From NCBI GenBank assembly GCA_947184155.2, contig CAMXCT020001559.1, positions 42,501 to 106,500 on the forward strand: a DNA stretch of 64,000 nucleotides, read 5' to 3'. Position 1 is the stretch's first letter. Each line of letters opens with the position of its first letter. The notes under the pieces were generated by a model that was not told the origin of the DNA, ran no database searches, and saw only the letters and a program-made list of their open reading frames with translations. A program made the position numbers and the translations under genes. Shown one piece after another: positions 29,101 through 50,100 of the stretch. This DNA comes from Cladocopium goreaui (taxonomy: Eukaryota > Sar > Dinophyceae > Suessiales > Symbiodiniaceae).

Positions 29101-32100
29101 TATATTGCGGATGACTATGATCCATATGTGTTTTTTCATGTTTGTTAGTGTTTTTCATGATTTAATGTGTGTTTTCTTTGTGTGTGTTGATCGATGTCAT
29201 TGTGTTTTCTGGATTTTACTTCATTCGCTTGTGGCCTTTTGAACGAATAAATAGCTGACATGTGATATTGTACCTTGCTGTGAATGAATGTGAATAAGAT
29301 GTGAGTCGAGGCAAAAAAAAACGAACGCGTGCTGCTATGCCACATGTTAGCGTCAAACCCGGAATGGGTTTAAGATTGAAACAAAGTTTGGATAGTAAGA
29401 TATTGTAAGAATATGTAAGAATATCAAGAACAAACATGGATTGCCGCCATTTTCCCGCCACTTCCCCCCGTCCTGTCCCCCCCTCGGACGGGGCAAGGCC
29501 GCCAGTGACGGCAGTTCTGTTGGCACCCCAACACACGGCCGAGATCCTCAGTGACAGACGGTTGGTGGATGTTTGTTGGGGAGGTCCTATGAATTTTCGT
29601 GGGCCTTGAAACAGTTTCTGGTTGGTGGTTTGGAACATGAATTTTATGACTTTCCATATATTGGGAATAATCATCCCAACTGACGAACTCATATTTTTCA
29701 GAGGGATTGAAACCACCAACCAGAGTTTGATTGATTGTTTTGGGGCATGGTTTGTAAATCATTTCGATGTGGTATTGTTTGGTATTGTTTGATGTCATGA
29801 ATTCATATGAATTCGCTAATATGGGTGAATTCTACAGCAAAACTGCGAAACATTGGCTACCTGACATGGCTAATTCAGAAAGTTCTGAAGGTTCTGAACC
29901 ATCCCCCGAAGTGTGCATCGCAAATCATCCAGGAATGGTAAAGATATATTGGCAAACTGATGGTACTGATCCCCGAAAATTGGCCATAGAATTCGGGGAA
30001 TGTTATTGGGGTTCTTAGTTACGCACCAAGATTGACGCGGAAAGAGAAGATAGCCCATAAAGATTGAAGCTTCATAAACACATGATGTGTGTAAACATTA
30101 AGTACCATAAACTTGACCCATCGGAGATGGATATCCAGAAACGCCAACAACCATCCCCGATTTTACCAGAAATGGATGGAAATGGGTTATATAAACTCTG
30201 CATAACTCTGCAATGCTGGAGGTTTGTGATTGGATTTACTACATCACAAGGTCACCTGGGAAACCCCCAAAACCAACGAGTCGCGGCCCACATGAAAAGA
30301 TCCACCACGTTCGGTACTGAAGTGCAGGACGGTGATATTTCATGGTATTTCTATCTCTATCTTTCAAAAGATACAAAATGGTTAGGCATGAGGCATGAGA
30401 TGTGTGCATATCTGCACTATCTCTTACTACCTCTAAGTTAGCTTTGGTATATGTACCCCCTAAAAAAGGTGGGATGTACCCTCTGGTTATTTAACATAGC
30501 CATGATATGGATGGCCCATAGAAATAGATGGTTTACCTGGGTTTACCCATTAAACATGGCGATTTTCCATGGCAAACTCTTAAATAACCCGAGGCGCAGC
30601 GCAGCGGTGCGCCGCATTGGAGGCGCCGCCTTTGTCCCAAGATCCGTTTGGCCCGGGGCCAAACGTGGATCTTGGTGGGTTGTAAGCCCTTAACAAATCT
30701 TAATATAAGAACATGGTTGTTGGTTAATCATAGTTAATAATGGTTAATAATGGTTAATAATTGGAATAACAATATATCTGGTTGCTGGTGTGGAACATTT
30801 TTTTCCATAATATACGGGATATATAATCCTTCCCATTGACGAACTCCATCATTTTTCAGAGGTAGGTCAACCACCAACCTGATGATTATTAACCAGCATT
30901 AACCATATAAGAACCATTAATATTAACCATTATATAATACCAATAGTATATTACCAACCAATGGTAGGTCAACCACCAACCTAATATGATTGGGTCCCAC
31001 CCAGAGATGTCCATTTTCCCAGAGATGTTCCAGAAATGGCTAGGCTGCAGAGAAGAGGGCTGCCGAGGCCCGAAACAACGTGCGGAAGACCCAGGTGGTT
31101 GGTGATCTTTTTTGCGAAGATCCACAAGCAGCCAGTTATGTAATTGGTAATTATCTGGCACATGGTTGGATGCTTTTAGATTATTGTGGTATATACACGT
31201 TTATATGTGTATATTATGTGTATGTATATATATGTATATATGTTATATAATTTTATATATTTATAGATATATATATATATTTATATATATATATGTGTGT
31301 GTTTGGGTAAATTATAACGACCTCACTGCGACCTCACTGGAAATCATAGTTAGTAAGGAGAATCATCCCTAAATGGCCTTAATTCAGGTTAGTGAAATAT
31401 TCTAATTTACCCAGATGCGTGTATGTATGTACATATGTGTCTATATGTAATATGTAAGTAACCGATTCTACCATATGCTCGATGCATGAACCCCGATTTT
31501 CTAGTTATATTTATGTGAAAACCGTGGTATCAGGATTCGATCCACAGCCATATGTGTGTGCGTGTTTTTTAAATTGTGATTGGCGATTTTGATGTATCTT
31601 GTCTTTTGCTTGCATATACCCTCTGGTTATTTAACATAGCCATGGAAGCCATGGCCCATTTATAGATGGTTTACCTATTAGAAATGGTGATTTTCCATGG
31701 CGATGTTAAATAACCAGATGGTATCATGTACATACATGTACATTGTATGTTTTCTTGGCTGGACCTAGTCTGGTAAATTTTGGTAAAGGGCAGCCTACTG
31801 CACTATTCAATGTTTTGCCAGTTGCCGTCCTGGGCGTAACCTCCCAGCAATCAACTTATGGTACTGGAATGTAAGTTGCAATCCATGTTTCTTCATGGGA
31901 AACTACGAGAAGATCATATGAAAAAAATGTTGAATTTCCAGTGCCAGTGGGTTTTTGAGAGGGTCAGTGATTACTAAAGCTGGTTGTTTTGTCCCGTGGC
32001 TATGAACACCTTAGACCTTAGGACCCGCTACCACCGTGGTTCTCCAAGGTGGTTGTCAGCATCATTCCAAGTTACGATCAAGATTGATTTATGGAGGTGT

Positions 32101-35100
32101 CCGAAAAAAGTGGTGGCTATCCCAAGTCACCATGGTTTTTTTTTCATACAAAAAAACATTACTGGTTTCAAACATTTTTTCCATTTCATATGTGGGTTGT
32201 CATCCTTCCCATTGACTTACTCCATGATTTATCAAGATGGTAAGAGTTTACCAGTTTACCAGTGATACACATATATATATATTACCATCTGGTTATGACT
32301 AACATAACCATGGAAAATCCACCCATTTTTAAGAACGGTAAACCATCTATTTCTATGGGCCATGGCTTAACCGGATGATTTGGGACTGCCATGACTCCAT
32401 GACGTCCCGATGGGTCTTCAGAAGAACAGGAAACCATGTATTGTTTGCCCTCTATAAATGTATAGTTGTACATATATATATATATGTATATTATATATAT
32501 ATTATATTATATATAGATATATGTATGTGTATGAGTTTAACCTCGCAATGGAAAAATGACCCGTTTAGTCTGATAAGTCTCCTATATGGAGGTGTCCTAA
32601 GTCGTGGAGGTACCCTCAATAATCATCCATTTCTTTGTTGAATTTTCCATGAACTAAACCATCCAGCTATGGGGGGCTAGCCATCAAGGCTGGCACTATG
32701 GACGACTGGAGGTGCCATTCATGGGATACGAATGGGAAGAAAATGATAGAAACATATGGTTTTACATGGTTGCATTTGGATAGTTACTGGATGATTATGG
32801 GATGCTAGCTATGGTTAAGTGGTTAACTTTAGTTTATGAGTTTATGATAAATATATCTAGAGTTAATGGAATACTATTGGTATGATTATGAGATATACCC
32901 TCCAATAATCAAACTTGGCAAATTGGGAAACACCCAAACTAAATGGAGGTTTGTAACTGAGAAAATCACCTTTCAACAGTGCCATGTCTGATTACCGGAG
33001 GGTATGACCATGGAACAGCAATTCAATGGGCTTTGGAATGTCCAACCTATTCGATGATGATACATGATAAGGCAATATACGACACTGCGCTGTAAGATGA
33101 CGTACATTACCAGACAACAGAATGCCATACAGTACAACACAACACACTGTTTGATGTCCAACATCCCCCCCTAGAACAACAACAACAACAACAGCAAAAA
33201 ACAACCAAAAAAAAAAACAACAGCAGCAACAGCAACAGCAGCAACAGCAGCAACAGAAGCAACAGCAGCAACAGCAGCAGCAGCAACAGCAACAGCAGCA
33301 GCAGCAGCAGCAACAAAAACAGAAACAAAAATAGCAACAACAAACAGACAGACAACAGACAGACAGGCAGGCCGACAGACAGAGAGACAGACAAACAAAA
33401 CACAAAAACGACGACGACGACGACCAGGTACAAGGTGAGGCCCTCGGGTTATGTTTGTTGGTTTTTAAAGCCATTGACTAGTTCGATATATCTACCATAA
33501 ACCATCGATATATCTACTATAAAGCAAATTAGCTATCATAGAACCGCTATAAATCCCATTAAATCCCATTTTTCTTTGTTAAATCACCATTTAATACCTT
33601 CTTTTCCTATGGCTGCTTTGAGGAAATCATGAGATCTTTCACCACTTGAAGTCCAGGCAAGAACAGCGCCGCCAGGCTTCAAGGCCTGGTTGATTGGAAA
33701 AAGTGGGATCAATGGGAATTCAAGGACCCTAAAACAGTTGAAATATATCGACCCCTGAGCCCCACTATGTATAGCATAGGTAGTAGGTCTAGTGTAGACA
33801 TGCCGTAGCTATGATTCCATCACATCCGAAGTAGTACATCTCAATACATGTACAGTTGTAGCACAACCTATGTAGAAGCGTTACATAGGTAAAGTAGCCT
33901 TAGATTAGAGGGTAGTACTAGTCCCATCCTAACAACAACCTGGGTGGTAGTAATTAGTATGCATCCGACGTCGACTGGCTCAAGTGCCTTCTAGAAAAGG
34001 TGCTTGTTGTGTTTTCATGCAGGGTCTGGGGAATTGGGTTCCCGTTTCTTTTGGGGTCTCCGGTTCTTCCCCCTGTTTGACTGGTTATCAGCCGTAAGGC
34101 TTTGTGTTAGGGAACCTAATTCTTTGGAACTTGCTTAGGCCCTAACATCGTATTCATCTTTTCGCTGTCACACTTGCATGCCCACAGATACGTCTGAGGA
34201 GGTCGCTGAGTTACTCGCGACCGAAGCACCAGCGGACGAAGGAGAGGGAGCGACGGACGCAGAGAGGGTTGAGCAGCCTGTTCCCCAATCTGTGGAAGTT
34301 GCGACCGAACCTGTCCTCTCCTGGGCAGACGCATCTGAGGATATTTTTGCGCCCGAGCCGTCTCTTGAGGGAACATCTGCAGTAGCTGACACAGATCGAG
34401 CCGAAGGACATCTGTTGGAGGTGAAGCAGGAGGAGTTCCAAGAGGCTACAACATGGGTGCCGTTCTTTCTGTGATTGGAGTGCCAGAAGAGGTCGCTGAC
34501 GAAGTCGCGACGGACCCTGCAGACCAAGCTTTTGATCCGGTTGAGGCTGACCCCAACGAAGTCCCAGCTGAAACTGCCTTTGCTGATTTAGATCGTGTGA
34601 AGGAAGAAGGTCAAGACCGTCCTGCAGGTGAGCCGTTGCCTCTTGCTGAGCAAGCCGATCCAGAAGCTGAGACAGCCGATCTTTTAGGTTTAGGTGACGA
34701 GGCGGGTCCAGTAGGAGAAGCATCCGTTGCATCCGAACCATCTGCATCCGTGCCTGAGCCTGCGGTCGCTGACACATCCGGTGTCGCGACAGAAGCCAAC
34801 ACTAGTTGCCCCGATCAAATAGTCCCACCACCAACTAGCCCTAATCTTGTTGACCCAGGTGCCGATCCTATCCAAGTAGGACATTCCCCCGCTAGTTCAT
34901 CAACAGCCCATCGACCAAGGGTTCGATCCAGCAGGGGTGGTGCCACAACCAGGTGGCAAGAAGCAAAGCGAGCTTGGTGGAACGACTTCGAGGCATACCA
35001 AAATTGGCTTTACCATAACTCCGGAGGGGATATCGTAGGTGGCTTTTGGTTAAGAAAGATTTCTTACGAATACGCCGACGAAAGCACTCGCTGGTTGATA

Positions 35101-38100
35101 GCTCTTCATTCAAGACTTGTTGAGGAGTTCCCAACATCACAGTGTTTAGCTTTGGCCTATCAAATCCTCATCCCATACAAAGAGTGGGCACACATTTACG
35201 GTTTGGACAGGCGTAGAGGTACATCACACGCTGAGCAAGTGATAAACTCTGGTGAACTACCCCCAAAAAGGATCATCAATCAACGCATCTTAGGGGCAGA
35301 GCACCCACGCCCAGAAGAGTGGGATAGGTATTATAGATACATAGGCCCACAGCAGCAACCCCATCCAAAAGTGGTAAGGCCTGCTGCCGCAACACCCGTT
35401 GCTGGCGCGGCAAGTGGAGGCACAGAACCTACTCCGGTCCAGCAAGGACCCAAAGAGCCTGGGCATCCACCGCCGAACTGGCAACCTTCATTGCGAAGAC
35501 CACCTGAGCCAGCAGTGCCACCGCGTCCAAGGGTTACTGTTTCTGTCCATCCGGTCCCACAAGCCCCAAAGTCAGATTCTCAAGGGGTCGCTGCCTCTGG
35601 GCGCGACGTAGCACCAGTCCCAGCTGCTAGCCCTGCTAAGCCACCAGCTAAAGCTAGGCCTAAAGCTCCTGATTCTAGTGCCACATCCCTTGCAGATAGA
35701 ATTCAAAGTTTGCCACCTCCACCTAATAACATTCCCCCTAGTCCGACCCTTCATAAACAACCACCTTTACCACCACCACCATCTCATCCGCCGCCAACTG
35801 CACAGGAGCTCGCTGCCCGCAGTTCCCAGCCAGCAGAGGCGCGAGAAGAGGCTGCTCCGGAGGGTCCCAACGATCCACCGCCTGAAGAGGAGCAGCGGGT
35901 GGAGGAGGAAGAGGAAGAGGAAGCTTTGGAGGAGGACGAAGTGGTTGAAGTTGAGGTTGAGGCCGAAGCCGAACCCGAATTCCCTGACTTTGCACCAACA
36001 GAGCACGGCCGTGAGGTTTCCACGCGCCGTCGTAGGCCTAAAAGAACTAGGTCCAATCCGCCATTGCCTGTCAATCTTGTCCCAAGGGAAACCCGTGAAC
36101 GCATTGAACTTAATCAAGAACTCTATAGAGCCCGAACCATAACCGGTGTTTCTAGGAGACCTCTTGCTTTAAGACCTCAAGTGCACGGTTACCCCGAAAT
36201 TAGAATTGACTCCGCTGGCACCTGGGCTAGGGTCGCTGATCCTCCGATCGCGTACGCGCCGCAGACTTTGCCGTTCATTGTGCCGCACGCCGTGGCACCA
36301 GAGCTTGGGGTCAACCCACACGAGCTTCCCGACTCGTTGTGGCGTGATCCTGCACTCAGATCCCATCGTACTGTTCTTGGTTCAAGTAATTAGACCCCAA
36401 CAGTGTTTATAATCTTGACACCAATAACCCCGGTACCGAATCTGAGGGCTCTGAAACTGCTGAGACTCGAACCGCCAGGTTTGTTTCATCAGGTCAGGCA
36501 TTTGTTGGCCAGCAAGAACCTTTCGACGCTGGCTTCGCTGAGCGCACCCCTGCCCGTCCAATTGAGTCTCCACCAAAGAGACAGCGTCCTAACATAAGAA
36601 CCTCCCGAATCCAACGTGATAAGCCGGCACAGCCCAGAAAAGATCCAGTTTCTGCTGCACCACCACCTGCAGCCCCAACAGTACCATCTTTGACTGTTCC
36701 CCCATTAAGCGGTTCTAGTAGTTCAGCTTATCCCTGGAGGCAATCTTTGCAAGGTGCTGGAACTGGGGTCGCTGACACAGCCCGTGTCGCGACAGAGACC
36801 GTATCAGAGCCAGCCGGCTCTCCCGTTGCGCGATCCAGGTCAAGAGCACCCTCAGCCGAAACTGCGCCCGCAGTTGCTGCTAGACCAAGGGGAAGGGAAG
36901 TACCAATTTCCAATAAGATTTCATCTAAGTCTCGCAAAAGAGCTAGTTCCGTTCCTGTGCCAATCCGTGCAAAGGGGGCTGCTGTCCCCGACACGCCCCA
37001 AAGGCCTGAACCGTTGCCACCAGCTCCAGAGAAAAAGAAGAATCTGCCTTGGAAACATCCACCTGTGAACATTGGGCCTGCGACACCCGTTGCACCTGTG
37101 GCACCTGCTGCACCCGCGGCACCTGTGGTAATTCCCCCAAGACCTAATAGGCCTGTTCCCCCTAATCCAGCTAGTCTTAAGCCTGTAAAACCCCCTCCGC
37201 CAGGAATTTTGGGGCCAAGACCTGCTGGTCAACCGTCCCGAGATCTTCCTCCACTTGATCCCGAAGGACAGCATCCGATAGGCTTTCAACGCCGAGGTAG
37301 CTGAGCTTGCTCGCTACGTTCGTCGGTCTGTCCTTGTCGTTTGCCAAGTGTCCATTGTCCAATTGCCTTTTGCCTTTTGTTTTTAGTTCAGTGTTGTTCT
37401 GCGGTCAGAGCTAGGGTCATTACCGCTAGCGAAGCCGTATTGCATCCGAACTTCAACACAACTTGAATTAATTTCAATTGCACTTTATTATCTTAATATC
37501 CAACTTGCGAAGACTTTGTTGGTTGAGGTAGTATTGTGCTGCATTGGTCTTTTGTCCCATCACTGCACACTTTTGCTTGGGACGCTGAGCAAAGCTCGCG
37601 TTGGATCACATCGTTGCAGTTGAGCGCAAAAGTTCAGCCGAGTTTGGGTCAAGATGTCAGGCATTTCTCCCCCTTCTGATCCTAGTTCATCTAACAGTAG
37701 GTCAAGGAGTAGTCCTGAAACTTCTAATCCAAATGCAACAAGGGTCCCGGCGGTTGTTACCTCCCTGGTTCCACGAAGAATCCAGTTGCCTTCAACTAGG
37801 GATGCCATGCGTGTTGATGAGTCATCTGATACTAGTGTGGAAGCATCTCAACAAAATAGATTTAGGCAAAGGGGTCCCCATGGTCCAAACCCAAGCAATA
37901 GTCCTGATGAAGATAATCCTGTAGACCTTAGTGCAACCCAAGCCACTTTCCTTGCGGGTGCTGCTGTAACCCAAGCGCACCATGCCGCCACTATCGCAGA
38001 CCATGCTAGTAATGTTGCCATCCAATCCCAATTAGAAGCCTTCCAAGCTAGACAAGTCATCGCACAGCAGCAATCCGACTTTGGTCAGGTCGCTGCAGAA

Positions 38101-41100
38101 ATGCGCGACGCCGCAGCACGAGCCATCCTGCACAACCAGGAGGAAGCTCACGCCGCTCTGGCTGAGAGGGACAGGGGTTCGGAGTTGTTTGAGCATAACC
38201 TCACCCAACAAGCCCAACAATTTGTTTTTGGGGCTAGGCAACAAGCTCAGCAGGAAGTCTTAGAGAGCCAAGCGGTTTTGCAATGGGAAGCCCAACAATT
38301 TGTGGAATCTAATGTTAGACCACTTCAACAACAAATCAATTTGGGTAACCAACAATTGGCCACTCGGGAAGTTGAAATAACTGAAAGGGATACTAGGATT
38401 GCTCTCCTGGAGCATGAGTTGGCAGAAGCCAGACGCCAAAACAACTTGGCTGTAGCATCCCCGGTTCCAGTTTCCCCCATTTCAGGTTCTGCCCTCATGG
38501 ACTTCCTTGCGGATCTTCCCCGAGAAAATATAGGTCAAAGGGTAATTCCTGAAGATGAGCAAACTATGGAAAACTTCAATTTATTTGAGGGTTATGTTCC
38601 AGCTCCAGCTCAAACACCAGATGTTCGTGCTAGGCCTTTTGGTTCCCCACAAAATACTCCAGTTCCCCTGCAAGAGGTTGCAAATCCAATGGTTGTAGAG
38701 GCAACTACTTGGGCCACCCCCAGGGTTTCTGTTGGCCAATCATCCCATGAAGTAGCACCAAATGTTGTTCCGACCATGCCTCAGTCTTTTCACCCTCCGG
38801 GTGCCACACCCGTGACTGTTATGGCGAACCCCCAACCTGCGGAGTTGGCAGTTGCCAACTTGTCCATGCCAGCAAATGCCATGGTACCTAGCGCTAATGT
38901 TGCAAGTGGTTCGAATCCAACAGAATCAGCTTTAGTCCATCAACTTTTAGCTGAAGTGAGTAGATTGACCAATGCATTGCAATCGCAACAGCAGCAACTT
39001 CAACAGATGCAACAACAACAATCTCAGCAGCTCACTGCCCCTGCACCCCTGCCGATAGCACCTCCGTGCACGCCCCCAAAGGGCGCTGCTGCTAGCGCAC
39101 CGGGCTTAGGTCCAACCAATGCTAGTGCTGCGGGCACTCCCTGTGCAAACTCTCGTTTTGGGTCCATAGGTCGTGCACCTCCACCGCAGCAGGTGTTGCC
39201 GCCAGGGTTGCCGCCACTTCCGTTGGCGCAACAGGGTTTAGTTGTTGACAATACCACATCCTATCACCATATTGGTTCTGCTAATAGATCAGTTGATTCA
39301 GGTAGCTCAGAGTCCTCCTCGGATTCTGGTGAGTTTCACTCAGTGCGTGCCCCATTAGTCCTTACCGAATGTAGGATTTGTGGTGACCTCCATGAAGAGA
39401 TCGAATGCCCGCATCTTACCATGAACCAACCCTATTTAGCCCCACAGCCACCTGCTGTTAACTATGCGGATGATGAAGAAGATACCATTAGGATAAAATC
39501 CTTAGTTGATATGGTTTTTCCGAATCCACCAGAAAACGCAGGTCAAGCCCGTGGATATATCAATCAGGTGTTGATGTCAATAGGCAAACTCCAAAAGACC
39601 CCCGGTAATGAGGTTTACCAATGGGCCCAAGAGTGCCTAACCATTGATGAAGCTGTTCTTCAAGCCGATCCTAGGTACCCCCGCACCGATCGAGAGATCG
39701 CTTCTAGGCTCATAAAGACCTGTAAGCGCGGTAGGTTTGGCCTTGTTTTTCAGCAAATGGTAGAAGCAGAGGGCGCAGCTAGTGGTGCAATGCCTTGCGG
39801 GCGCGCGATGTTGCGTAAAATATTCAAACATTTTCAACTCGAGCGTGACCGCATCGGCATGCTTGGCGAGCGGAATCTGTTATCCCTTAGGGTCGCTGGT
39901 AACACGGTAGCTGACTTAGAGGCCTTTAGGGATAAGTATATTTACGTGATGTCTACCATTCCCTTAGAGGATTTACCGCGACAACAAACGCTGTTTAACC
40001 ATCTCATCGACGAACTAGAACGCAATGCCGTGATCGCCCCAAAAGTTGTTAAAGCTAGGGAAGCCCGACTAGATAGCCATCGTCGCACCACTGACTGGTT
40101 ATGGTCTAAGGTTGAACTTGCCATCCAACTTGATCAGCAGAAGCGTAATCGCGCCGAGTTTGATAAGCAGCTGAAGTTGAAGCCTGCTGCTGGCTATGCT
40201 GGCACGCAACAAACCCCCGATGATAAAATCGCTGGTGCCCCTGCACCAACCCCTAATCCCAAAGCTAAGGCCACGCCTAAGAACCAGGGTCCAGGGGGGG
40301 GTAATCCTCAACCAAAGAAAACCCCTAAAAAGGAGGACGTGAAGGCAGCTCCTGCCCCGAAAGCGAAGCCCAAAGCCAAGCCATCCGGTCCAAAGCCGCC
40401 TCCGCCCAACCGAAAGGGCAACACGACCCCGCGTGGGGAAGAAGCCAAGAAGGTAGCAAACATGAGCGCTTCCGAAAAGGCCAAAACCCCTTGCATGTTC
40501 TATGCGTACAATGCATGCAAAGCTAAGTCGTGCGCGTTCCTCCACTCAGACACTAATAAGTATAAGGGACCTCCTCCTAGAGCACTTGGTAAAAGCGGTA
40601 AAGCCCCTGCCAAAGCTGCTGCTAGTATGGCAACTGTCATAATCCCAGAGGTCGCTGCCGATGGCGCGACTAATAATCCTGACCCCATCAATGCCATGCC
40701 AATGAAGGCCTCCAAATCCATCCCTTGGCTTTGGGACACGGCCGCAGGTCGACACTTGATTGGACGCCAAGCCCTCACACCAGCCATGAAGGAGCACTTG
40801 CAGCAATCACCCAATCCTGTTGCTTTTGCTACCGGAGGTGGCAGCCAGCCTGGCCAAGAGTCACTAGCCTTTAATGGAAGTAAGATTCTTGAAGGTGAAG
40901 AGGTCTATGTCCTTAAAGAATGTCCTCCCGCACAAAGCATTGGTAAGACTGTCATAGATAAGGGTTACATGTTTGTCTGGGATCCTAGAGAGAATGTCCC
41001 CTACTTGATAGCTCCAGAAAATATCAACAGGTGTAGGATGAAAGTTCCCCGGAACGCTAGAATCTGTGCATCTAGGGTAGTTGAATATGTTCCCCAGTAT

Positions 41101-44100
41101 GATGAAGAGTTGACCCCACGTCATTTTGTGCCCAGCGAGCACCTTGCTCCTGTTTCAACTGCCGTGCCAGCTCCACCTGTGGAAACTGATGCTCCCGCTG
41201 ACGATGAAGAAGATCCTAATGACCCTGGCTATGCCCCTAGCTTTGGTGGTAGTGACCTTCCTAGTCCTTCAGAATTAGATGAAATTCTAGATCCCGAGCC
41301 TGTTGAGGACGCTGCTGGGCCCCCTAGCGCGTCGGAGCCTAAACACCCAATGGATGATAAGCTTTTGGTAGAGCTAGGTGATGGTGAGCCGCCTAAGGAT
41401 GAAGTTCTAAAGCAGCAAGCCACTAGCCCTGAACATTTGCGCACCCATTTTCCCAAAAAACCCTACTGTCCTTTGTGCCATATAGCAAAAGATACCGCCA
41501 TGAGGGTTTCACATGTCAAAGATGGCAAAGCCGATGATTTTGTTGATCCCCCAAAGCAGCCGCTGGAACAGCTTGCTACTGATGATGTTATCTTAGCTAA
41601 AGGGTCCGAACACTTGGGTGTAGGTATAGGGGGAATAAGGTCGCATCATGTCATCCGCGATGCGTACTCTGGTGCGCGTGTTGCATACCCATTGTCTAAA
41701 CGTACTGCTGACGCGCATGCTCGCAACTTTAGGCATTTCTTAGGATTGCGTGGATCAGAGCTCACCACCCGAACGTTCATCAAAATGGACGAAGCAGGCG
41801 AGCTTGAACAGGCGGCACATGCCGTAGGCATGGTTCCAGAAACCTCGTTGCCGAACAGATGGCCCCACAATGCCATCCTCGAGAGAGATGTTCGAGAGGA
41901 GAAAGAATGTTGCCGCACTATTCACCTCCAATCTGGCCTTCCCTATGAGTATCACACATATAGCTATCCATATGCTTGCCTTTCAATGTCATTCGACAAG
42001 CCTTCAATAGCCGACCCCGACAAAACCCAATGGGAGTCGCTTACTAGGAATAAGTTTGATGGCATGAGGTTATGCTTTGGTCAGTTAGTGTATTACCGTA
42101 GGAAGTCACCCACCAAAAGGACTTTGGAGCCCAACATGTCACCTGGTCTATTTTTGGGTTGGAGGATTGATCCCGGTTTCCGATATAGAAATATCTTAAG
42201 GGTGTTAGATTACCAAGAGTATCGCACTAGAGGTGGGAATTCAGCCGTTGATGTTCCAGAAGCAGAAATCTTTGTCCCTGAAGGTGATCCTGTTTTTCCA
42301 GTAGGTTTTTCACGCCACCAAGCTCTCATCAGGGGGGATAACCCAGATGATCTTAAGTTGCCTGAATATGCCTTAAAGGATGTGCCCTTCCCCAAGGAGG
42401 GCGGAATAGCCTCACCCTCTACACCAGGTCTCAAAAGTCGTTCTGTTTATATAACCGTAGACCGTATCCTTAAGTGGAAAGAGACCCCTGGTTGCAAAGG
42501 CTGCACTGGCCATTCGCGCGTGCACACTGATGAGTGCAGAGCCCGCTTCGCAATGTTGGTTGAAAAAGAAAAAGAAGCCGAAAAAGAAAAGAAAGCTCCA
42601 CCTCCCATAAGTGAAACAGAAGCAGAAGACAAGGATGATGAAGCACATGGCATCATCTTCCACGGTGAGGATCTCCCTGATCCCGATCCGATACCATCTC
42701 ACCTCTCCGCAGAGGACAGAGCACTGGTTGAGGAAATCTTCATAAGAGGTGAGGTACCAGGGTCATCCGAACCCAGCGCTCCAGCCGAGCCTGCTGTTTC
42801 TGTTTCTGGTGTAGCTATTCTCCCACAAGTTGCCAATCGATGTTCCGACCTATGCCAAAAGTCGCTGCCTGTTTTTGGTTGCCCCGCTGTAGGTAAGCCA
42901 ACTAACCGCGATAATCGTAGGAGCCGGAAAGCTGCCAAGAAAGCTTCCAGACCCAATGCCAAGTCAACCATGTTTGAATTTGCTTGTTCTGAGGACTCCC
43001 AGATGGGTTTTACTCACCAAGAATATGGCATTAATCATGTTAGACTTTGTAAGGATAGGATAGACCTGGGAGATGAGTCACAATGTGAGCAACTAGACTA
43101 TCAGATAGATGAAGCCGCTAAGGTTGCACCTCCACATATGTGGGCCTCTATCCCTTGCACATCCGGATCCCCTTGGCAGTACATCAATAGGAAGAGGGGT
43201 GGTGCCGCGTTCATTAGGAAGCTTGCCCACCAGGTCAAAGAGTCCAAACGGTTGTTTAAGAGTTTTTCCAAACGCGCTGAAAGGGTTCTCAATCATGGTG
43301 GTACTGTAACGTTTGAATGGCCAAGACCTTGCTCTGGCTGGAAAAGGCCTGACGTTGTAGCATTCTTTGAGAAACATCCCCAGTTTATGACCGTTGGTTT
43401 TGAAGGGTGTACCGTAGGTTTAACCGACAGAAATGGTTATCCCATCAAAAAGCCATGGAAGCTCAAGACCACTTCTCCCCGAATTGTAGAGGCGTTTCAA
43501 GATATGCGGTGCCGATGCCAGCAACCTCATTCCAGATGTGAGGGAGCTGAGACCACTCGCTCCGCAATGTATCCGCCCCAAATGACTAATCTAATTGCGC
43601 AAGCTTTGTATCCCTCAAAATGTGCCCAGCAGTCCGTTCCTGCTATGCCTTGCCGACCGGCAACTAGCGAGCCTCAACCCCATAGGGAAATTGAGCAGCA
43701 CCTTAAGCATGTATCCCCATTAGCTGGTTTTGAAGATTTAGCCCTAGCTGTTGAATCAGACCCCACTGCTAATAGGTTGGTTACAGAACTTCTTGACCAC
43801 GAACAATTGATCGCTCAAGCCTTCCACCTGGAAGACCCTAAGGCGCCAACGCCTGAGATCAAAGCTATGGTCACTAAGCTCTTATCCCGTGCAGAGATGC
43901 TGTCCAATCCCAAGGCCCTCGAGGCAATCCGCGCCGAAGCCGATGGTTTGGTTAAGGCTGGTACATGGGATCTTGGCTCGGTCCGCGAGAAGGAAGATGT
44001 ACGCAAAGAAGCTAAGGCTTCGGGTGTATCAGTACACTTTGGTCAGCTCATGACCATCGCGTCCATTAAATTCTACGAGCTTGCAGACCACCTTCACAAA

Positions 44101-47100
44101 ATGAAGGGGCGCATCGTGTACAGAGGAGACTGCGCAAAGGACGAACATGGTGCAGCCGCGGTTTACCAAGAACTCGGCGCTAACCCCACCTCCGTCCAAG
44201 GGCTAAACGCCTGCCTGGCGTATGGGTCGCTGCCGGGTAACCGCGCGACGGCTGCAGACGCAGTCAAAGCTTACGTCCAAGCGCTGTTATCTTCCAAATA
44301 CAAAACCTGGATTGAGCTTCCCCCGGAGCTCCGCCCTAAGTATTGGAAGCAACAGTTTGTTAAGCCCGTAGTCCTCTTAATTAAAGCCTTATACGGTCAT
44401 CCTGATGCCGGAGGCCTGTGGGAACAACACTTGAAAGTCATCATCAAGAACCTTGGTGGACAGGAAGTTCCAGAATACCCAGGAAATTTTTACTTCCCAG
44501 ATACAAAGTTACTTCTGTCAACTTATGTAGACGATTTAACTCTAGCTGGCCCCGCCGACCAGCACGATGCTTTCTGGAGTAAGTTAACTTCTGTGGTAGA
44601 CATTGAACCCCCAGAGCCCATCTATAGGATTCTTGGACGCAACCATGTTGTTACCCCACTATCCAAGACCGAAGGTCATGAAAAATGTGCAGCCTTCCAA
44701 GCCCAAGATGGCATGGTTTTTGACATGGCAGACTACGCTCAGCAGACCGTAGATTTGTATAAATCAATAACTGGTGTCACCAAACTCAAGCATGCCGCCA
44801 CGCCATTTCCACCTGAGGGATCCATCACCATTGAAGATGATGAAACTAAAGGGGAACTAGCTCCAAATGCATGTAAGATTTTGATGAAAGCCCTTTGGTT
44901 AGGTAGACTTGCACGTCCAGACATTATCAAGCCTATCAATGATCTGGCCACAAAGGTCCAGTCGTGGTCCAGGGGGGATGATAAGAAGGTCCTAAGATTA
45001 ATCCAGTATATAGCCTCAACACCACACTACAGGTTAGTAGGTACCATTCAGGACAAGCCTGAAGACCTAGAGCTCAGACTGTTTGTCGATGCCGACTTCG
45101 CCGGCGACAGATCAACTGCACGCTCAACCTCCGGTGGCTTTCTGGTTTTAACTGGCCCTAGTTCCTTCTTCCCACTTGCATGGATTAGCAAGCGCCAAAC
45201 ATCCACTTCTAGATCGACCACGGAAAGCGAGGTTGTTAGTTTAGCCCATTCGCTTTATCAAGAAGGCTTGCCTGCCTTACAGTTATGGGAGCTGTTGCTT
45301 GCACGCTCCGTAACCCTCAAGGTCCACGAAGATAATCAAGCAACAATCCTAGTTGTGAAGAAAGGATATAGTCCCAAGCTTCGCCATATAACTAGAACAC
45401 ACAAAGTTAATTTGTCTTGCCTGTCCGAAGTCTTCAGGGATGACTCTGCCGAAATAGAGTACACCCACACCGATGATCAGGCGGCAGACATATTCACCAA
45501 GGCATTGCCTCCACACAAGTGGGCAGCAGCACTAATCCTTCTAGGAATACGTACTGATCTCCCCTTAGACCTTAAAGCCAACGCCTAGGTCGCTGCGGAC
45601 ACCCGTTCGCGCGACAGTAGTTGCGTAGGTTACTGCCAATGCGCAGTGCGTGTGGAACAGGCGAGGGGGGAGTTGAAATATATCGACCCCTGAGCCCCAC
45701 TATGTATAGCATAGGTAGTAGGTCTAGTGTAGACATGCCGTAGCTATGATTCCATCACATCCGAAGTAGTACATCTCAATACATGTACAGTTGTAGCACA
45801 ACCTATGTAGAAGCGTTACATAGGTAAAGTAGCCTTAGATTAGAGGGTAGTACTAGTCCCATCCTAACAACAACCTGGGTGGTAGTAATTAGTATGTATC
45901 CGACGTCGACTGGCTCAAGTGCCTTCTAGAAAAGGTGCTTGTTGTGTTTTCATGCAGGGTCTGGGGAATTGGGTTCCCGTTTCTGTTGGGGTCTCCGGTT
46001 CTTCCCCCTGTTTGACTAAAACATCCTAAAATCTAGGTCAATCTTGGATGGGTAGTTTAATCCAAAATATTCTTTTGGTGTCAATGGGATGATCTACTAA
46101 CCAGCTAAGATTTTAATTTGTTGCAAGGTATCTAAGATTGGCCATGAAATGGAGGTACTGTACAATATAAAGCATTATAGAGCCATAGAAATTAGGTGCA
46201 TCTTTGAATTTACACTTGGCCTTAGGCCTGGTACCTCATTTGCTACCTCAATTGGCCATTGAGTGGATTCCCCTTTTGGTATCGAGGAGTATGATAATCC
46301 ATGGGAATTCCTTTATGAGCCTATGAACCAACCAGTCACCACTATTTTTTTCGGGATGACAGAGGATTTTTGAACACGGCTCATCTGTGCCCACAGAAGC
46401 GTCCAGCATGCTAACCTTGAGCGAAATCCTGGGTTTTCCGTAGGAATGATCTACAAATGATGGAATTTCCAGAGCTATGCTAGTTTATTGGATGATAGAT
46501 TTAACGTGGAACCCAAGAATTACCATTTTTGGAATATGTTTATTGAATAGGAACATGTTTGGTGGATAGTGGATGACACATGTTCTGTTGAGTTTATTGG
46601 TAACATCCTACCAGTGGCTGGATGCTTCATTTTGAGCCACAACTGATTTGGGGGAAGGTAAAGATCCATTGAAGCATCCGAAATATGGTGAACTTGCATT
46701 TTTTTTAGGTCAATCTCGGATGGGTAGTTTAATCCAAGATAGTTTTTTGGTATCAAGGGGATTATCTACTAACCAGCTAAGAATTTAGTTTGTTGCAAGG
46801 TATCTAAGATTGGCCATGCTATCGGGATTTGATTCGATCATTATAAAATTGGAGACCATCAGGATTAAAGATTCGCGAAACATATCAAGTTTTAACCATC
46901 AGATTGGAACCACTTGAGTTTCTGAAATAATGATGTGTGGGGCATCTGTGTCAGTTCGTATGGTGGGATGAAAACTGTGTGCACCCAAAGACAAGCGGTA
47001 TGAATTATTTATATAACCAACACGTAGAGACAACAGGCGAACAACATAAAAATCTACCCAGAAAAAAATTGCATTTGCTGGTTGTGTTTTGAAAAGATGA

Positions 47101-50100
47101 TTTTTTCCATCCCCATCTTGGATGATAATCCTTGGTGACCATGGACTTAATATATACATAACTATAGTGCTGTAAGGACTTCTAAATCGCAAACCTATAT
47201 ACATGCCTTCTTGAAATTGGTCCATCTCCGTTCAACAAGGTGGCAATCGTAAAACAAACAAGAACATGTCAATCTGGAAGATGTTCCGATCTTTGTCCCT
47301 GATGTTTCCCATCCAAAAAAGGGGATTTCCCGATTTGGAAGTTTCTTAAGTCATACAGGGTACCCCCAAATCATTCAAAAACTTAGGCATTTTTTTGGAA
47401 CCCCATGGTGACTTGGTGGTCCAAACCATTTTAAGACCCCCGCCCGCATTTCGCAGGGCTCCGGAGCCACCGCCGTCGGAGCGTCCGGCGCAAGCGCCAG
47501 CGCAAGCTCCGCGGCCGCCCGCGAGGGATGATGCGGATCCGGAGGACGTGTCCTGGGTGGACATGGTATTTAAAATGTATGTCACACATATATATATATA
47601 TATTATACATATATATATATATATCATTAATTTATATGTATATATATATATATTAGTCAGTACTACTATCAAACATGATTGTATAATCATCATGATTGTT
47701 ACTATTACATATAACTATCATTAACCATGTTTAACCACCATTTACCATCATTAATTACTGGTTGGTGGTTTGGAACATGTTGTATTTGTCCATGTATTGG
47801 GAACAGTAATCCCAACTGACTTTCATGTTTTTCAGAGGAGTTGAAACCACCAGCCAGTTTATGTATATCTAACCAATTATTTATATGTACAATACTATTG
47901 AATATCCTATCTGACTATTATCGTCTATGACCATGATCAACTTTATATATATATAATTATATATATATGTACAATACTATTGTTATTATGTATTGCCATT
48001 ATTAACTTTATATATATGTTTAATACTATAGAATATCCTATATGACTATTGTCATCTATTACAATTATTAACTCTATAATTACTCTATATTCAATATAGT
48101 TTAAGTACAATTCTATTGAATATCCTTTCTGACTATTATCATGTTTTGCCATTATGAAGTTTATAAGTACTATATATATATATATACGTATATACAATAC
48201 TATTGAATATCTGATACACATATTATCATTACAACTATATACATATACATGATGATGTATCATGTGCTGGACTATAATGACAACTATTAATGTTGAATGA
48301 TGACTATGATGAAAGTACTTATATAGTCATTCTGGACTATCACAACTGATTTCTGCAAGGACTGGATGCTCCAACAAGCCTTGTCAGCGTCGCTGGAAAC
48401 TCCTCAGAAGACCGAGGCAGAGGCCGACTGGCGGTCGGGGAAGGTGTGGAAGTGAGTGTTTTGATGAATAAACCAGAACCGCAACCTTAGGATTAAGAAA
48501 GCCATGAGTATACCGGATCCATCCGGATCTTACTATACTATTCTAGGATCCTAATCTGGTTGGTGGTTTCAAACATTTGGATTGTTTTCCATTTCACATA
48601 TGGGATGTCATCCTTCCCATTGACGAACTCCATCATTTTTCAAGATGGTTAGTTTACCACCAACCAGTGATACATATATTACCATCTGGTTATTTCACAT
48701 AACCATTTATCCACCCATTTTTTAATAGGTAAACCATCTATAACTGGGCCATTTTCAATGGTTATGTTAAATAACCAGATGATTTCCGAAACAATGGATT
48801 TATAAACCCTCCAGGCCGATCGCCTGCCAAGGCGCAAGATCCTGAGCTGTTGGATCTGCAGCTGCGACAGGCGCGGGGCCTGGGTGCTTTAATTAGAAGC
48901 AACGTTGTTTATATGTTTTTTGATGGGATACAGTGGGAGACAATGGGATATAAGCAGCAATCTAATATTTGATGAACTTGGTATGTTTTTCTTTTTGAGA
49001 GTTGTGTATACTGTATACTTAAAAACTTGCAATGTTTAGGGGACCTGAAATAAATAATCGGTGGATTTGGGCGTATGCACCATTTGAGAGAAAACCACAC
49101 GGATCTATATGCATTTCCATGAGTGAACAGCCCACAATTTGTAGATAATTTTCAACATGTTTTAACGCAAAATACCATAAAGTACCCTGGTGTAGTCCAG
49201 TCCTATGGCAACCTGTTGATATTCCTCTTCCCACTTTCCAGGTGGCAGGACCCGGGATTTACCTGCAAACCTAATCACATGTCCCATCTTCCATACCAAT
49301 GATCTAATGCACTAGGGGATATACAGTATACCACGACATGTTTTTTGGTAAAGAACTACATGTCATTGACAAATGCCCACTACTAGTATCAGATTTGAAT
49401 CATGAGAGCATACTCCCATCGAAAACCGTTGTTTTGAAAACTAATTTCATCAAAAAAGATCAACACCGTATACCCTCTGGTAAACTAACATAGCTATGGA
49501 AAATCACCATTTTTAATGGGAAAATCCACTATAAATGGCCATTTTCAATAGCTATGTTAGTCATTACCAGAGGGTAACATTTACAGTACCATCCCACAAA
49601 TGGTAGAAAGGGTCCGGCAAACCTGCACATTGCCCAAAAAAATCCTTCGACATCCTGCAACTATACTTGGATTTGTTGGGTCCCAAAGAAATAAAACATA
49701 TTCACTATAGATTCCCCAGTCAGGGTGGATTTTCCATTGGGAAAATAAAAAATCACCTCAAACAAACCCAGGTATATACAAGTAGCTAGTCCTGTGAGTG
49801 CTCCAAAGCCTCGTGAGACATTCCATGGTGCTACTGAGTAGCAGCAGGCTGGCCAGGTGTCGAGAAACCCCTTGCAACCCGATGCCAAAAAGAACAAATC
49901 CTACTTACATTTATCATTTGTTTCTCATCTTCACCAAATTTTGGGGGTTACTGCAACCTATAATCTCCAGAATCAGGAATCTCGAGAATCAACTGGTCAT
50001 CCTTTGTTTAAAGCACAACTGAATGGATGGCTAGTCTGGCTGATAATTTTGTACATACTCCCAAATTCACTACAGTCAATCATCTGTTCCCAAATTTTTA

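Follow-up and report, generated by a model that had tools for sequence, protein, structure and literature searches.

Bulged-T hairpins with jointly changing arms recur along a copia-type retrotransposon of Cladocopium goreaui

Results

A hairpin family within one retrotransposon

A copia-type long terminal repeat (LTR) retrotransposon at positions 33736-46017 of a 64,000-nt stretch of Cladocopium goreaui DNA (contig CAMXCT020001559.1; the whole stretch is called the window, and its non-element part amounts to about 52 kb) holds 13 good and four doubtful copies of a small hairpin, all on the + strand (Table 1). The hairpin consists of a preceding G, a 5-bp outer stem GNNGC/GCN'N'C with fixed inner G-C and C-G pairs, one bulged T (U in RNA), an inner stem opening with G-C, and a free loop. 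Selection on the RNA structure is well supported by shuffling controls in the window and by residues that change together in the proteins of relatives. We give about even weight to the reading that this is a single family of cis-acting recognition sites, carried by the sense RNA of a Symbiodiniaceae copia clade and serving as dispersed packaging or assembly signals bound by an element protein.

Copies were found from approximately 120 nt past the 5' LTR to approximately 55 nt ahead of the 3' LTR. They are single, with starts 132-2562 nt apart, and the genomic RNA would carry several stem-loops with a common recognition feature along its length, as is found with dispersed packaging signals. Nearly all coding copies begin at codon position 1. 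Copies are also present in non-coding places, that is, between frames (37581), over a stop codon and downstream of the stop (45589), the first and last of which a preliminary description of this DNA had already listed together with its claim of at least 13 bulged-T hairpins within one retrotransposon. Two of the copies, at 34765 and 36768, are nearly identical (repeat family D11). The same description had called the bulged T constant and the outer stems changeable on both arms; the T is seen in 16 of 17 copies, but the likely copy at 39207 has C, and the two outer pairs do change, but 39082 has a C/A mismatch. The copy reported in another codon phase at 44226 is present but weak, with a covariance-model E-value of 0.054. 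It may be due to chance, because it is weak, lies in a protein-conserved stretch, and the related protein P0004 reads W instead of S at this place, which does not fit the stem.

A detector blind to sequence (5 bp, a bulge of 1 nt, 3 bp or more, loop of 3-9) picked up 11 hairpins in the element whose bulge is a T on the 5' side. Dinucleotide shuffles gave a mean of 0.4 and a maximum of 3 such hairpins (n = 200). When codons were shuffled within the three open frames such that the protein was preserved, the mean was 0.33 and the maximum sum 3 (n = 300) as compared to 9 observed. The codon-preserving check proposed earlier did not reach similar numbers, and the suggested action at the nucleic-acid level was supported. 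Enrichment was restricted to the 5' T bulge class: the seven other 1-nt bulge classes totalled four hairpins (5' C 1, A 0, G 0; 3' A 0, C 1, G 1, T 1), four were bulge-less (two overlapping starts per LTR), and 2- and 3-nt bulges came to eight altogether.

A relaxed scan, in which the bulge had to lie between GC and G and its base was left free, yielded 18 candidates in the element (16 with T, two with C) and four in the rest of the window (three with A, one with C and none with T); T is found in 79 of the 233 GCNG contexts of the element. The candidate at 36005 (start ACGGC, bulged C, preceded by C) was set aside as not belonging to the family, which leaves 17. The base immediately 5' of the hairpin formed no part of any search and was G in all 17 copies (13/13 strong copies; 17/18 if 36005, with its C, is counted), as opposed to 47 of 231 other GNNGC sites of the element.

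Twelve copies, which had been chosen for pairing, were aligned, and each of the 72 outer and first-inner cells is paired. Changes on both sides are seen at two outer pairs, a number also reached by 83 of 500 shuffles; the five doubly changed cells and the covariation score of 0.275 were each matched by none of 500, and once the partner was slid the score of these copies was at most 0.056. A covariance model was built from the 12 copies, and both strands were searched. Apart from the 12, which match by construction, two further copies were recovered, with E = 0.054 (44223) and 0.15 (37954), plus a few marginal ones inside the element; outside it, the 64-kb window contained nothing below E = 3.8. 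The minimum-energy RNA structure contains the hairpin in 13/13 strong copies. Rfam 15 gave no match in the window at gathering score.

Neither the relaxed scan nor the covariance model revealed a copy in the remaining 52 kb of the window. Reverse-orientation copies were found neither with the strict pattern nor by the model in its search of both strands (the relaxed scan covered the + strand); the sole minus-strand model match within the element (E = 8.4) represents the complementary strand of hairpin 1. The non-Watson-Crick pairs of strong copies (37581, 41308 and 45589) are G.U in sense RNA and would be A.C in antisense RNA.

Predicted pairing in relatives, read through proteins

Relatives were compared as proteins, where pairing was deduced from the possibility of synonymous codons; the bulged T itself is seen in the window DNA only. 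A hairpin of length 20, 23 or 26 that begins at codon position 1 encodes residues x-A-g-...-z-A-y. The outer stem ties x to y (V-T, G-P, D/E-S, A-A), and the inner stem ties g to z as follows: (i) A with S, R, G or C; (ii) D with V or I; (iii) E with L or F; (iv) G with S, P, T or A; (v) V with Y, H, N or D.

In the open reading frame 1 (ORF1) set, the inner residues were compatible in 95 of 109 peptides with compatible x/y (43 expected under independence; permutation maximum 59, n = 2000) and in 36 of 224 with incompatible x/y (39 expected). The corresponding figures for the pol set were 102/233 (expected 78, maximum 94) and 194/1049 (expected 166, maximum 199). In 99 of 100 distinct cases a codon ending in G exists for the residue that precedes the hairpin, compared to 83% of residues overall.

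Homologous sites of ORF1 were collected with a parser that sought V/A...A-T first and therefore tests the inner stem, not the outer one. At site 1 (the hairpin at 34202), 22 of 23 distinct peptides fit, with the pairs D-V, A-S, A-R, E-L and E-F, and at site 2 23 of 24, with D-V, G-A and G-T plus one G-P in a peptide with a broken outer pair; no permutation among 10,000 was as good in either case. Site 3, which is missing in some relatives (e.g. P0129 and P0130), fits in 18 of 21 distinct peptides, a value equalled by 47 of 10,000 permutations. A change of the outer pair is seen at site 5, where most relatives read VADTARVAT and P0137, P0199 and P0200 read AADTSRVAA. The site of hairpin 6 reads VAGTIPRH in relatives. 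In the repeated segments of P0212, P0213 and P0215, VAVPKERD (or VAVPNERD, VAVPIERD) alternates with VVVPKEHD, which fits a C-G to U-A change beside the bulge.

In pol of the near clade (P0001-P0040 and P0059), 61 of 64 GA..AP peptides were inner-compatible (permutation mean 51.6, maximum 57), as compared to two of eight in more distant copia elements; for V..T peptides of near pol the count was 6/10 (mean 2.5, maximum 6). The window family has DAAGPPSAS just ahead of the (L/M)DD motif, and others have GAAPSAP, GAAPGAP or GAGSAAP. Among 40 near proteins, 16 have this site and 15 of them fit the hairpin (the exception is P0010 with EGAEPASVP), 18 yielded no text there and six yielded unrelated text. 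The 3'-terminal site, which lies past the stop in the window, precedes the stop in P0020 (GAAAGAP, by rule) and P0006 (GAAPSRP, by hand); in the other proteins listed for the 3' end, whose 3' ends are not covered, nothing clear was found. Some sites are lineage-specific (40651), and no clean unit indel was seen among the relatives. With respect to the earlier question whether related elements have the hairpins at matching positions, hairpin-compatible residues are kept there with co-changing arms, some other sites being used in addition; this covariation is strong and is a protein-level observation.

Clade limit and stem types

Hairpin-compatible peptides at codon position 1 were counted and compared with locally shuffled sequence (mean of three). 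There were 151 such peptides as opposed to 26 after shuffling in near pol (40 proteins), 265 as opposed to 26 in ORF1 (66 proteins), 18 as opposed to 20 in mid-distance pol (34 proteins; four of the 18 come from P0059, really a near copy) and four as opposed to three in the outgroup (14 proteins). The other codon phases of near proteins gave 9 vs 1.3 and 34 vs 25. The hairpin feature thus appears to belong mainly to one element clade and not to every copia element of these hosts. Mid-distance and distant pol together have few G..P (eight) and V..T (four) peptides.

Inner types agreed within an element in 48 of 76 pairs (20 proteins), where permutation, ignoring kinship, gave a mean of 27.6 and one value as high in 5000. 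In P0021, P0025 and P0026, all ten GA..AP peptides are of the G-A type.

The element and its surroundings

Assignment to the copia-type LTR elements rests on paired LTRs, a 5-bp target duplication and an RVT_2 reverse transcriptase; the RVT_2 Pfam match of gag-pol (E = 6e-4) is under the Pfam gathering score, and relatives carry the RVT_2 annotation and the names RE1 or GIP [Symbiodinium]. Among relatives that have a name, RE1 and GIP proteins from Symbiodinium natans and from Symbiodinium sp. CCMP2592 are the closest, with 63-66% identity over query residues 1900-2654. The insertion is young, because the two 347-bp LTRs differ at two positions and AAAAC is present on both flanks. A capsid-like region, a CCCH motif, protease, integrase and RNase H were identified in gag-pol by eye.

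ORF1 is broken here into frames 34390-36390 and 36390-37301. The longest relatives have it as one uninterrupted ORF of about 1200-1480 aa, and frames A and B, which the preliminary description kept apart, are thereby better regarded as one. This splitting of the window copy (34178-37301) into several frames is seen despite just two LTR differences. ORF1 has a conserved arginine-rich stretch, RRRRPKRTR, and a conserved domain (34903-35392) for which an all-helical fold was predicted (predicted local distance difference test score 83.5); no match to this domain was found in the PDB, and none to ORF1 in Pfam. The longer ORF1 relatives P0128, P0156 and P0159 have a conserved C-terminal domain with (V/I)DWHDT(L/I)D, which by eye resembles phosphatases of the haloacid dehalogenase (HAD) type; P0159 has no Pfam match. 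This domain was not noticed in the window copy, at which no search for it was aimed. Repeated segments, several with a hairpin-compatible peptide (GVAVPKERD, GVVVPKEHD), were observed in ORF1 of P0184, P0185, P0187, P0212, P0213 and P0215.

Fold-back repeats of about 110 bp, similar to miniature inverted-repeat transposable elements, flank the element on both sides (31616-31725, 48680-48786 and 49469-49583); they are mutually related, and their arms are up to 94% complementary (repeat entries D12, D13, I1, I2, I11 and I15). Direct repeats spaced by 131, 87 and 87 bp are present at 47877-48227 (D4, D6), and a 113-nt direct repeat with 92% identity (46034-46146 and 46706-46818; D5) lies shortly downstream of the element.

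Table 1. Hairpins and other features of the retrotransposon (window coordinates)
Feature	Position	Strand	Description
Target duplication	33731-33735		AAAAC, immediately 5' of the 5' LTR
5' LTR	33736-34082	+	347 bp, AGTTGAAA...TTTGACT; two mismatches vs 3' LTR; repeat family D3
ORF1 region	34178-36390	+	ATG 34178 in one frame, followed by open frame 34390-36390
Hairpin 1	34202-34221	+	GTCGC T GAG TTA CTC GCGAC; codons 9-15 from ATG 34178; relatives' site 1
Hairpin 2	34492-34511	+	GTCGC T GAC GAA GTC GCGAC; relatives' site 2
Hairpin 3	34765-34790	+	GTCGC T GACAC ATCCG GTGTC GCGAC; relatives' site 3
Hairpin 4	35587-35607	+	GTCGC T GCC TCTG GGC GCGAC; relatives' site 4
Open frame	36390-37301	+	C-terminal part of ORF1 in relatives
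Hairpin 5	36768-36793	+	GTCGC T GACAC AGCCC GTGTC GCGAC; relatives' site 5
Hairpin 6	37297-37317	+	GTAGC T GAG CTTG CTC GCTAC; overlaps stop codon of frame 36390-37301; site 6
Hairpin 7	37581-37602	+	GACGC T GAGC AAA GCTC GCGTT; between reading frames; outermost pair G.U
Gag-pol polyprotein	37624-45588	+	2654 aa; stop TAG 45586-45588; reverse transcriptase by Pfam
Hairpin 8	37957-37981	+	GGTGC T GCT (loop 8) AGC GCACC; moderate, covariance-model E = 0.15 (match at 37954)
Hairpin 9	38089-38109	+	GTCGC T GCA GAAA TGC GCGAC
Doubtful copy	39082-39101	+	C/A mismatch in outer stem; possibly decayed GGNGC-type hairpin
Probable copy	39207-39232	+	C as bulged base; GTTGC C GCCA..TGGC GCAAC; also in repeat family D11
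Hairpin 10	40651-40670	+	GTCGC T GCC GAT GGC GCGAC; relatives VAAHGAT, VAADSAT, VAAEGAT
Hairpin 11	41308-41333	+	GACGC T GCTGGG CCC CCTAGC GCGTC; one inner G.U; directly upstream of (L/M)DD motif
Hairpin 12	43543-43563	+	GGAGC T GAG ACCA CTC GCTCC; protein-conserved stretch
Doubtful copy	44226-44249	+	2-bp inner stem; other codon phase
Doubtful copy	45288-45309	+	2-bp inner stem
Hairpin 13	45589-45615	+	GTCGC T GCGGAC ACCC GTTCGC GCGAC; one inner G.U; abuts gag-pol stop codon on its 3' side
Purine tract			GGCGAGGGGGG, directly upstream of the 3' LTR
3' LTR	45671-46017	+	347 bp; followed by target duplication AAAAC at 46018-46022

Discussion

As to the binder and the function of the hairpins, we infer that an RNA-binding protein encoded by the element, either Gag, which carries a CCCH finger, or the product of ORF1, would bind the bulge region at many places of the genomic RNA. 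By this binding the element's own RNA would be picked out and condensed into particles, as with the dispersed packaging signals of small RNA viruses. Stem letters vary from one element lineage to the next and tend to be alike inside a single element, which would be expected if binder and sites drift together. The limit to one clade and the stem types typical of each element speak for a reader that the element itself encodes. The presence of copies all the way from close to the 5' end to close to the 3' end speaks for a role in assembly or packaging over a single regulatory switch. ORF1 is the second candidate for the reader on account of its arginine-rich stretch and its all-helical domain without PDB match.

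Several observations weigh against this proposal. Fold stability of the copies is ordinary (z of -0.54 to -2.44 vs shuffles). In distant pol (33 proteins, P0075-P0107) there is an excess of compatible peptides, 32 vs 14 after shuffling, for which we have no explanation. The Pfam CCCH finger is also annotated in relatives outside the hairpin clade (P0049 and P0063), and therefore this finger alone cannot explain the clade limit. Site 5 is not significant (5/8; 1086 of 10,000 permutations as good), with some rows misaligned. No clear excess is seen for D..S (4/7, mean 4.0), E..S (3/9, mean 1.8) and A..A (15/53, mean 14.6) peptides of near pol. A bulged T at codon position 3 is invisible in proteins. 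Finally, the relatives are not independent samples, and since kinship was ignored the permutation counts are not probabilities.

Recognition at the RNA level could also serve nuclear export, control of translation or stability, or recognition of the start codon, each mediated by a protein of the host or the element, in the manner of the trans-activation response element (TAR) or the Rev response element. The RNA-level evidence (shuffles, preceding G, covarying sites) applies equally to such a role, hairpin 1 starts at codon 9 of ORF1 with a compatible peptide starting at residue 9 in 20 of 22 listed ORF1 relatives, and the RRRRPKRTR stretch would suit it too. Few or clustered sites would, however, be expected for export or translation control, whereas those observed are scattered along the full RNA up to its 3' end, and any non-packaging role has to accommodate sites that are largely confined to one element clade; we regard it as possible but less probable than packaging. 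Less probable still is a tiny mobile palindrome of 20-27 nt that spread inside the retrotransposon in the style of Rickettsia palindromic or mitochondrial double-hairpin elements, which the preliminary description had named as the nearest ideas. Local copying is apparent from the tandem duplication VAADFSATVAADFSAT in P0225 and the repeated GV.(A/V)PKERD units in P0184, P0185 and P0187, and both the near-identical copies 34765 and 36768 and the agreement of inner types within an element would be in line with spread. These ideas fit less well, as the copies found in the window all lie within the element and in one orientation. In the 52 kb tested locally there was none in unrelated genes or intergenic DNA, the sites are conserved with co-changing arms, and no case of a unit cleanly inserted with a target duplication was observed. 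A function in sense RNA is favoured over spread because outside and reverse copies were not found and more distant copia elements, including some of Symbiodinium natans, show no or weak signal.

That the hairpins are a by-product of a protein-level repeat, such as a short linear motif or a protease cleavage site (VA[D/E]..VAT or GAAxSAP) whose codons pair by accident, is very unlikely. Similar peptides do recur in the polyprotein and most coding copies share codon position 1, but synonymous shuffles destroy the hairpins, copies occur between frames, across a stop and after a stop, residues change pairwise according to the demands of base pairing, and the preceding residue can nearly always be encoded with a final G. 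Chance or base composition, to which the unexceptional fold energies of single copies might point, can hardly account for the shuffle controls, the invariant preceding G and the covarying sites.

More tentatively, each lineage might have a stem code of its own (outer U-A, G-C, A-U or C-G; inner C-G or G-C) and a matching RNA-binding protein, which together would form an address system by which self and non-self are told apart among the genomic RNAs of sister elements. If so, sister elements in one nucleus would distinguish their genomic RNAs, and sites and reader would evolve in concert.

Choice of their own RNA by LTR retrotransposons is, to our knowledge, a largely open question, and the signals known so far are each a single region close to the 5' end. 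No hairpin family of this kind in LTR retrotransposons was found in the open-access literature (PMC). The protein-level signature (V..T or G..P outside; D-V, A-S, E-L or G-A inside) offers a simple way to look for such structures from proteins alone, and the present results give a handle on Symbiodinium copia elements, which PMC11453091 describes as heat-activated.

Among known systems, Rickettsia palindromic elements are likewise palindromic units tolerated inside reading frames. They are mobile insertions in unrelated genes and much longer than the 20-27 nt found here, where in addition the copies belong to one element clade and one orientation. Mitochondrial double-hairpin elements share the feature of small repeated hairpins, but they are mobile, organellar and paired, whereas the present hairpins are single, have a fixed bulge and reside in an LTR retrotransposon. 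In TAR of bovine and human immunodeficiency viruses and in other stems recognised through a bulge, a bulged pyrimidine in a G-C rich stem is the protein recognition feature, as is proposed here; TAR is a 5'-terminal element and not a genome-spread family. Ty1 is a copia-type LTR element too, with Gag as presumed RNA binder. Its proposed packaging signal is a 5' region with a pseudoknot, and its Gag binds with low specificity; a repeated hairpin family is not mentioned in the available part of that source (PMC8396678). A further resemblance is to the dispersed packaging signals of MS2, satellite tobacco necrosis virus (STNV), parechovirus and the pregenome of hepatitis B virus (HBV). As described in PMC6281560, packaging-signal assembly in RNA viruses is based on multiple stem-loops that are dispersed over the genome, share a recognition feature and otherwise vary in sequence, and similar mechanisms have been suggested for repurposed Gag-like proteins. 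In the present case the bulged U in the stem is constant and the loop is free, the carrier is an LTR retrotransposon, and binding is a proposal. If it holds, repeated covarying hairpins along a whole copia genome would extend assembly by packaging signals from RNA viruses to retrotransposons.

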